From assembly GCA_003644385.1 (NCBI GenBank), contig QNCD01000006.1, forward strand, positions 1 through 37,473: 37,473 nucleotides of DNA. The letters run 5' to 3'. This DNA is from Candidatus Omnitrophota bacterium (GTDB lineage Bacteria > Omnitrophota > Gorgyraeia > Gygaellales > Profunditerraquicolaceae). Numbering within the stretch: position 1 is the first letter of the stretch; each line of letters starts with the position of its first letter. The position numbers and the translations under genes are program-made. Shown piece after piece: positions 2,780 to 36,535 of the stretch. The notes under the pieces were generated by a model, which saw only the letters and a program-made list of their open reading frames with translations, was not told the origin of the DNA and did no database searches.

Positions 2780-4186
2780 TTAAACCCTTCTCTTATTTAC
2801 TTCTAAATTTAATTCCTTTAATTGGCGCTCGCCGACATCCGAGGGTGCGCCGGTTAAAGGACAGATTCCTGCACTGGTTTTAGGAAAAGTAATTACCTCC
2901 CTAATACTGGATTCATTGGCCAATATGGCCAAAAGCCTGTCCAGCCCGAAAGCAATACCTCCGTGCGGAGGAGCTCCGTACTGAAAAGCCTCCAGAAGAA
3001 AACCAAAACGCTTATGTGCTTCTTCCTGGCTAATACCGATAATCTTAAAAATCTTTCCCTGTAATTTCTGGTCGTGAATCCTTATCGAACCTGAACCTAT
3101 CTCCATCCCGTTTAAAACAAGGTCGTAAGAACGGGCTTTAATTTGAGCAAGGTTTTTTTCTAAATCTTGCGGGCTTTCTTTACCCGGAGCAGTAAAAGGA
3201 TGATGCTCACTCTCCCAGCGATTCTCCTCCTGGTTATATTTAAAAAGCGGAAAATCAACAATCCAGGCAAAGGCAAAATCAACGCCCAGTTCTTTTCTTA
3301 AATCCGGCTTGTCAGAGGAGTATTTTTTCTGTGCCTCCTCATAACTGATCCTGGGAAAAGGGATTTTGACCTCTATGCCTTTTATCTCCTTGAACATCTT
3401 CTGCATCATCCGCTCGCAAAGGCTAAAGACGTCCTCCTCGTCAATAAAAGACATTTCTATGTCCAGCTGGGTAAATTCCGGCTGGCGGTCAGCGCGCAGG
3501 TCTTCATCGCGAAAACATTTTGCAATCTGATAATACCTCTCAATTCCGGCAACCATTAAAATCTGCTTAAATAACTGCGGGGATTGCGGAAGCGCATAAA
3601 ACTTTCCTTCACCGAAACGGCAAGGCACTAAATAATCGCGCGCCCCCTCCGGTGTGGATTTAGTAAGAATTGGGGTTTCGCATTCAAAGAACTTTTCCTG
3701 ATCCAAAAATGAACGCAAGACCTTATAAACCTTATGCCTTAACATAAAATTATTAAACACGCGCTTCCTTCTTAAATCCAGATAACGGTATTTAAGCCGG
3801 GTGTCTTCGTTGGATTCCAGGTTATCCTCGATTTCAAAGGGCGGGGTGAGGCTGGAATTTAGAATCTCCAACTCTTTGCAAGCCACCTCTATCTCACCGG
3901 TAGCCAACTTCGGGTTAATCGTCCCTTTTGGCCGCATATTTACCGTACCGCTAAGCTTAACTACAAATTCGCTTCTTAATTCCTGGGCCTTATCATAGGC
4001 ATCAGCAGATTCTTTGGGAATAAAGACTACCTGAGTAAGCCCTGCGCGGTCGCGGATATCGATAAATATCAATTTCCCGTGGTCGCGGCGGGCTGCCACC
4101 CAGCCGCATAGGGTGACCTCTTTTCCCAGATCATTTTTGTTTAATTCACCACAGGTATGTGTCCTTAACATTTTATGTACGTCCAC
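2780..4186 (-). CDS. aspS: Aspartyl-tRNA synthetase lacking the GAD insertion domain
   Basis: 468 aa; OB-fold N-terminus, class II motif 2 RCFRDEDLRADRQPEFTQLDIEMSF, motif 3 GGIAFGLDRLLAILANESSIREVITFPK. Confidence 0.93.
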   Translation of the reverse strand: MDVHKMLRTHTCGELNKNDLGKEVTLCGWVAARRDHGKLIFIDIRDRAGLTQVVFIPKESADAYDKAQELRSEFVVKLSGTVNMRPKGTINPKLATGEIEVACKELEILNSSLTPPFEIEDNLESNEDTRLKYRYLDLRRKRVFNNFMLRHKVYKVLRSFLDQEKFFECETPILTKSTPEGARDYLVPCRFGEGKFYALPQSPQLFKQILMVAGIERYYQIAKCFRDEDLRADRQPEFTQLDIEMSFIDEEDVFSLCERMMQKMFKEIKGIEVKIPFPRISYEEAQKKYSSDKPDLRKELGVDFAFAWIVDFPLFKYNQEENRWESEHHPFTAPGKESPQDLEKNLAQIKARSYDLVLNGMEIGSGSIRIHDQKLQGKIFKIIGISQEEAHKRFGFLLEAFQYGAPPHGGIAFGLDRLLAILANESSIREVITFPKTSAGICPLTGAPSDVGERQLKELNLEVNKRRV

Positions 4187-35820: not shown

Positions 35821-35891
35821 AGCGAGCGATGGGAATCGAACCCACATATATGGCTTGGAAGGCCATTGTTCTACCATTGAACTACGCTCGC
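35821..35891 (-). tRNA. tRNA-Gly(TCC), CCA not encoded
   Basis: GCGAGCGTAGTTCAATGGTAGAACAATGGCCTTCCAAGCCATATATGTGGGTTCGATTCCCATCGCTCGCT; anticodon loop CTTCCAA. Confidence 0.95.
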
Positions 35892-36031
35892 ACATTTGTC
35901 AATAAATGCAGGAGAAGGCTACTTCAATTCCTCTGTGTTATGCCCGCGATTATAATTATATCCCGATAGGCACTATGGTTAATTCACACGCTATTACTTG
36001 TTAGTGAATTACACCGCGAAGCAATGCTGCT

Positions 36032-36156
36032 TGAGTGCCACCAGAATTTTCTACTTTCCAAAAAACAGGTATGCACTCCGCTCGCTATTTTGCTTGTCGC
36101 AAAATTACGCTCGCTTGAGTGCCACCAGAATTTTCCTTGTCGGAAAATTCTGGTGG
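36032..36156. repeat. Related hairpins with shared TTGTC loop in the tRNA-Tyr/tRNA-Gly spacer
   Basis: CCACCAGAATTTTCC-TTGTC-GGAAAATTCTGGTGG (36122-36156), ATTTTGC-TTGTC-GCAAAAT (36087-36105), third partial copy TGAGTGCCACCAGAATTTTC near 36032-36051. Confidence 0.8.
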
Positions 36157-36436
36157 GTAGGAGAGGATTCGAACCTCTGAAGCACAAGTGCAGCAGATTT
36201 CAAGTGCCCTCGAGTTGCCTCAAGGCTTGGACTATCTCATCACCATGACCTATTTAAGGCTTTAGGTGGTAGGCGCTTAGTCTCTGCACCTTTCCGCCAT
36301 AGAATCGACGGACTTGGCTCAGGATTACCCCAAGTATTCCGGGGCTTCCCTGAATTCACCTACTTTTTCATTCTGCCTTTCAGCAGAACGCTGCTTTCAT
36401 ACAGTCTGCCCCCTTTGGCCACTTGGGTACCTACCC
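36151..36436 (-). tRNA. tRNA-Tyr(GTA), class II, split by a group I intron; exons 36401-36436 and 36151-36200
   Basis: Spliced GGGTAGGTACCCAAGTGGCCAAAGGGGGCAGACTGT+AAATCTGCTGCACTTGTGCTTCAGAGGTTCGAATCCTCTCCTACCCACCA; 7-bp acceptor GGGTAGG/CCTACCC, anticodon loop CTGTAAA, variable arm GCAC/GTGC. Confidence 0.93.
36201..36400 (-). ncRNA. 200-nt group I self-splicing intron (IC3-like) in the tRNA-Tyr anticodon loop
   Basis: P motif AATTCAGGGAAGCC, Q AATCCTGAGCCAAG, R GTGCAGAGACTA, S GATAGTCC; P1 CTGT/GCAG with U.G at the 5' splice site, P2 TTCTGC/GCAGAA, P3 GTAGGTG/CGCCTAC, P4 TCAGG/CCTGA, P5 CCCC/GGGG, P7 GACTA/TAGTC, P9 CCTTGAG-GCAA-CTCGAGG; terminal G. Confidence 0.92.
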
Positions 36437-36459: not shown

Positions 36460-36535
36460 TGGAGCTGGCGAAGGGAATCGAACCCCCGACCCGCGGTTTA
36501 CAAAACCGCTGCTCTGCCTGCTGAGCTACGCCAGC
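36460..36535 (-). tRNA. tRNA-Thr(TGT), CCA encoded
   Basis: GCTGGCGTAGCTCAGCAGGCAGAGCAGCGGTTTTGTAAACCGCGGGTCGGGGGTTCGATTCCCTTCGCCAGCTCCA; loop TTTGTAA. Confidence 0.95.

Follow-up and report, generated by a model that had tools for sequence, protein, structure and literature searches.

Bacterial tRNA group I introns have been listed for the cyanobacteria and for the alpha- and beta-proteobacteria only (PMC4033280). The hosts named in the papers that we found are tRNA-Leu, tRNA-fMet and tRNA-Ile2, with one paper claiming further hosts in cyanobacteria. A preprint by Nakagawa et al. (2025, bioRxiv 10.1101/2025.07.03.662931, cited in PMC12641178) concerns, by its title, tRNA group I introns with a novel insertion site in Patescibacteria. 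Outside tRNA genes, group I introns have been described in the T-loop of tmRNA (PMC11915505). tRNA-Tyr interrupted between positions 35 and 36 is not named as a host in the literature that we found on bacterial tRNA introns. Here we describe such a gene in an Omnitrophota bacterium. Judging from comparison of sequences, it is very probably the sole tRNA-Tyr gene of this organism, interrupted by a functional self-splicing group I intron that is IC3-like and has no endonuclease gene.

The window, that is, the whole stretch of 37,473 nucleotides analysed here, belongs to an Omnitrophota MAG. On its minus strand, positions 36151–36436 contain a class II tRNA-Tyr(GUA) gene split in the anticodon loop between positions 35 and 36 by a group I intron of 200 nt (36201–36400, minus strand). 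The 5' exon, GGGTAGGTACCCAAGTGGCCAAAGGGGGCAGACTGT (36401–36436, minus strand), covers tRNA positions 1–35 and comprises the acceptor strand GGGTAGG, U8, the D arm, the 5' strand of the anticodon stem and the loop bases CUGU. The 3' exon, AAATCTGCTGCACTTGTGCTTCAGAGGTTCGAATCCTCTCCTACCCACCA (36151–36200, minus strand), runs from A36 onwards through the long variable arm, the T arm and the 3' acceptor strand to the encoded CCA. The joined exons form an 86-nt tRNA-Tyr(GTA) with the 7-bp acceptor stem, U8, long variable arm, T arm and CCA in place. This is a complete class II tRNA with the GUA anticodon, as expected of a functional gene, and ARAGORN, given the spliced 86-mer, likewise calls tRNA-Tyr(GTA). 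The coordinates, strand, host gene, boundaries and class II product proposed in an earlier note, made from this DNA alone, are thus borne out by the exons, the covariance model (see below) and ARAGORN. The same note expected standard tRNA finders to miss or misreport the gene. ARAGORN with default settings indeed did not detect the split tRNA-Tyr in the window, but with its intron option it found, unaided, a tRNA-Tyr in the unspliced gene, with an intron of length 200 after base 36.

The split gene is located in a tRNA cluster, with tRNA-Thr(TGT) (36460–36535, minus strand) upstream and tRNA-Gly(TCC) (35821–35891, minus strand) downstream. The order Thr-Tyr-Gly resembles that of the thrU-tyrU-glyT cluster of E. 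coli, and hence the split tRNA-Tyr stands in a normal gene context. The cluster is surrounded by housekeeping genes, encoding NAD(P)H-hydrate dehydratase, a thymidylate synthase-like protein, glycerol-3-phosphate dehydrogenase, homoserine dehydrogenase and threonine synthase.

The Rfam model RF00028 (Intron_gpI) matches positions 36408–36208 of the minus strand over its whole length with 89.1 bits (E-value 1.2e-21), well over the curated gathering score of 50 bits. This agrees with the group I assignment of the earlier note, for which a poor covariance score of 36201–36400 had been given as one way to fail. The precursor folds better than all of 200 shuffled sequences (z-score −4.25).

The covariation analysis covered 44 distinct precursors and a structure that included the tRNA helices, P1–P9 and the P3/P7 pseudoknot. 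The fraction of paired cells is 94.6%, against at most 50.7% in the best control with the pairing partners slid, and two-sided changes are seen at 53 of the 79 pairs, every shuffle being below the real structure. Such changes occur in eight of nine pairs in the P2 hairpin with its GAAA loop (36369–36390, minus strand here and below), in three of seven in P3 (5' strand 36357–36363, 3' strand 36269–36275), in eight of eleven in P4/P5 (36319–36353), both helices contributing, in all eight in P6/P6a (36289–36317), in three of four in P8 (36241–36268) and in six of seven in the P9 hairpin with its GCAA loop (36208–36225). The guanosine-binding helix P7 is formed by the R motif (36278–36282), its 5' strand, and the S motif (36230–36234), pairing GACUA with UAGUC. 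The internal guide sequence GCAG (36391–36394) pairs with CUGU (36401–36404), producing P1 with the U.G wobble at the 5' splice site. All four pairs of P1 and the GACU/AGUC part of P7 are invariant in the 44 homologues, and so P1 and most of P7 are neutral with respect to covariation. The U.G at the splice site is present in 44 of 44, and the last intron base is G (omega-G at 36201); both the U at −1 and the 3'-terminal G are group I features, though, as they were demanded by the searches, their constancy is partly built in, whereas the guide G opposing the U was not demanded. The P3–P9 core with its P3/P7 pseudoknot, as expected of group I, is backed by covariation, and most of the P1–P9 pairings drawn at first reading, including the GCAA-capped P9, covary.

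The IC3 subgroup features a compact core, GNRA loops on P2 and P9, and the absence of P5abc, P2.1 and P7.1/7.2. In its anatomy the intron of the window fits this description, with GAAA on P2 and GCAA on P9, and it is thus IC3-like and a candidate member of the subgroup. It contains no homing-endonuclease ORF, as had been stated earlier, and none could fit in 200 nt. P1 is only 4 bp long, and there is no clear candidate for P10, a pairing that looks weak or absent.

The fold suggests the following course of events. The pre-tRNA-Tyr would fold with the anticodon stem still paired, and the guide GCAG would pair with C32-U33-G34-U35, so that P1 places its U.G at the 5' splice site. Cleavage after U35 by a guanosine held in P7 would come first; U35 would then attack after the terminal G, so that U35 is joined to A36 and the GUA anticodon loop is restored. 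Since P10 looks weak or absent, the 3' exon is probably held by the paired anticodon stem, as in the Anabaena pre-tRNA in the account given of it (Zaug et al. 1993, cited in PMC3984707). The sequences themselves establish the anatomy, the boundaries, the covariation and the mutual exclusion with intact genes (see below); catalysis by the RNA itself, its kinetics, the order of the steps and the participation of any helper proteins are what we infer. The genome also encodes tRNA-guanine transglycosylase, which modifies G34; as its target U33-G34-U35 abuts the junction, queuosine is presumably added after splicing.

An alternative, which we consider unlikely, is that splicing occurs only with the help of a protein, such as tyrosyl-tRNA synthetase acting on pre-tRNA-Tyr, or an RNA chaperone. 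The fungal mitochondrial tyrosyl-tRNA synthetase CYT-18 assists group I introns in splicing (PMC3984707), and in the present case a tyrosyl-tRNA synthetase would meet its own natural substrate in the host RNA; the short P1 and the lack of an evident P10 point in the same direction. However, the tyrosyl-tRNA synthetase gene present in the MAG fits the ordinary tyrS model, with an open frame of 398 aa, the ordinary length, and no sign of an extra domain, so that no extended CYT-18-like enzyme is seen. Moreover, compact bacterial tRNA introns splice alone, the one in Azoarcus pre-tRNA-Ile being an example that needs no protein.

The MAG comprises 175 contigs at a completeness of 90.7%, and among its 38 other tRNA matches there is no further tRNA-Tyr; within this draft genome, the intact second copy that the earlier note had allowed for was not found. 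As tyrosine codons need to be read and the split gene is the only tRNA-Tyr found, it has to be spliced. In the Omnitrophota at large (384 genomes), the pattern of an intact tRNA-Tyr is found in none of the 26 genomes with the split gene and in 239 of the 358 others (hypergeometric p = 2.2e-12, a value that overstates the independence of related genomes, although the split and intact states alternate within genera). The one remaining genome with a split pattern (G328) has a different tRNA split and carries an intact tRNA-Tyr. Similarly, an intact tRNA-Tyr is found in none of 37 split genomes reached via named records, 14 of them from Patescibacteria and some of the Omnitrophota overlapping the above 26. 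This mutual exclusion of split and intact genes seems to be the strongest functional evidence short of an experiment.

One might still suppose that the split gene is dead or silent and that an intact tRNA-Tyr, unassembled or residing on another replicon, does its work, as the completeness and fragmentation of the MAG would permit. For the strain of the window alone, an intact copy might lie in the portion of the genome that the MAG lacks, but this is improbable given the distribution over the genomes. Further, the exons form a perfect tRNA and the intron helices are under strong covariation, both of which speak against a dead copy, and with zero intact genes in both sets of split genomes this explanation is strongly disfavoured and, in our estimate, highly improbable. 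Hence the split gene has to work, and it very probably does so by self-splicing.

The Tyr 35/36 intron is a widespread family rather than a single occurrence. RF00028 matches are present in 36 of 58 related genomes. A survey of the same site in related genomes, as proposed in the earlier note, was made by scanning GTDB species genomes with a pattern consisting of the S motif, G|AAATCY and the T loop. It yielded 70 stretches. In 48 of them, from as many species, a tRNA-Tyr gene is split, and its 5' exon, with CTGT at the end, lies 181–282 nt upstream. Of these species, at least 48 in number, 32 are Omnitrophota and 14 are from Patescibacteria lineages. The latter lineages are Moraniibacteriota, Magasanik-, Uhr-, Peri-, Peregrini-, Yanofsky-, Lipton- and Parcubacteria. 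The pattern itself dictated the 3' splice site at AAATC. For the 5' site, the search called for an anticodon stem that matches and for U as the last exon base, and every site found was after U35. Two stretches resembling Tyr introns, one at a contig edge (L108) and one with a run of N (L118), were left out of the count. The non-Tyr matches (L100, L101, L105, L107 and others) were taken to be due to chance or to other tRNAs and were set aside. In viral contigs, the only match for a split tRNA-Tyr has a 3' exon of a Met-type (CAT) tRNA and not of tRNA-Tyr. The same pattern also gave candidate 3' ends of group I introns, as pattern matches only, in Arg-like tRNA genes of the Desulfobulbales (L115, L142, L161) and in a tRNA gene of Parachlamydia (L123).

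Relatives in the Omnitrophota carry group I introns in other genes too, the host isotypes being assigned by explicit stem checks. Many have an intron in tRNA-Asn(GTT) (L044, L055, L057, L059–L063, L065, L070–L072, L074, L085–L087, L089) at the same position, 35/36, with the same CUGU target and GCAG guide as in tRNA-Tyr; in some of these introns the P1 loop carries a long extension, and one intron encodes an HNH-like ORF (a weak match). Initiator-type tRNA-Met genes are split at 33/34, and some of their introns (L064, L066) encode a PD-(D/E)XK endonuclease (PF11645, E-value 4.7e-45), a family known from cyanobacterial tRNA-fMet introns. Further group I introns are seen in tRNA-Lys (33/34), tRNA-Arg (34/35), tmRNA and 23S rRNA. 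No Asp intron with the CUGU target was found in the 384 genomes, the single match being an fMet intron.

Because some branches in the tree of intron cores are long (Lys, Arg, L127 and L133), we take from it only that introns cluster according to host gene rather than to genome. The Tyr introns of the Omnitrophota cluster together, separately from the introns that related genomes have in tRNA-Asn, tRNA-Arg, tRNA-Lys and tRNA-fMet. The Tyr introns of Patescibacteria, with the exception of L127, form a clade of their own, apart from the Omnitrophota Tyr introns at the same site. Within each of the genera g13 and g29, both split and intact tRNA-Tyr genes occur, and hence gain or loss has been recent in places. 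This mixing, together with the endonucleases encoded by introns in other tRNAs of the relatives (PD-(D/E)XK in fMet, HNH-like in Asn), could mean that the intron inserted recently as a mobile, homing element on which the host depends little. We find this doubtful, as all Tyr introns found are 181–282 nt long and have no room for an endonuclease, the hallmark of a homing intron, and the separate clustering of the Omnitrophota Tyr introns also argues against it. Covariance matches of at least 285 nt at Tyr loci might suggest introns with an endonuclease ORF, but the explicit search for exons gave intron lengths of 199–282 nt there, the surplus being upstream sequence. More probably, the Tyr intron has been inherited, with patchy gain and loss at one fixed site in the Omnitrophota, and a separate lineage occupies the same site in Patescibacteria.

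The tetranucleotide CUGU, C32-U33-G34-U35, is common to the tRNAs with GUN anticodons, which are the queuosine tRNAs. Tentatively, a CUGU-guided intron family may have settled separately in tRNA-Tyr of the Omnitrophota, in tRNA-Tyr of Patescibacteria and in tRNA-Asn of the Omnitrophota, always at 35/36, by re-targeting a single guide specificity, the sole essential tRNA-Tyr gene being the host in the first two cases; we hold this to be possible rather than probable.

A second group I intron (L038:2542–3600, G000 contig 27) interrupts the tmRNA gene of the same MAG in the T loop; its P7 and P3 strands are set apart by a few hundred additional bases. Its RF00028 score, 35.6 bits, is below the curated cut-off, and the tmRNA model ends at the junction. 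A palindromic stretch of about 180 bp with a GACAAG loop occurs in two copies, 83% alike, at 35979–36156 of the window (minus strand) and at about 1500 of L227 (G000 contig 27, about 3570–3750). Each copy starts precisely at a CCACCA 3' end, one at that of the split tRNA-Tyr and the other at that of the split tmRNA, and the marker GGCACTCAAGCGAGCG of the stretch has only these two occurrences in the genome. Possibly the stretch is a small element settling at the 3' ends of RNA genes.

With the split tRNA-Tyr, the group I introns of bacterial tRNAs reach an apparently new isotype and site, where they are common in two mostly uncultured groups. The split gene explains the apparently missing tRNA-Tyr genes in such genomes. 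It also provides a natural test, in which an essential single-copy tRNA depends on a ribozyme and the split and intact states exist side by side in one genus. Since the Tyr and Asn introns have the CUGU target in common, a spread from tRNA to tRNA directed by the guide can be tested.

How new the host is depends on the recent literature. The suggestion of the earlier note that a Tyr host is unusual and may be undescribed agrees with the papers that we found, but is less safe in view of the preprint of Nakagawa et al. (2025). Its title names Patescibacteria and not Omnitrophota, and the novel site may or may not be Tyr 35/36; the preprint may therefore cover a part of the present finding. Like the Tyr intron, the group I intron in the T-loop of tmRNA (PMC11915505) interrupts a small RNA with a defined structure and has U at −1 of the site, while the host RNA and the loop differ. 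The closest systems are the bacterial and plastid introns of tRNA-Leu(UAA), tRNA-fMet, tRNA-Ile2(CAU) and tRNA-Arg(CCU). The Tyr intron shares with them the compact core of about 200 nt, the site in the anticodon loop, U at −1 with the U.G pair of P1, the terminal G and the GNRA loops on P2 and P9. Unlike them, it resides in tRNA-Tyr(GUA), interrupts it between positions 35 and 36, and is found in Omnitrophota and Patescibacteria. Thus, while group I introns in the anticodon loops of bacterial tRNAs are already known, tRNA-Tyr(GUA) split at 35/36 appears to be both a new host isotype and a new site.
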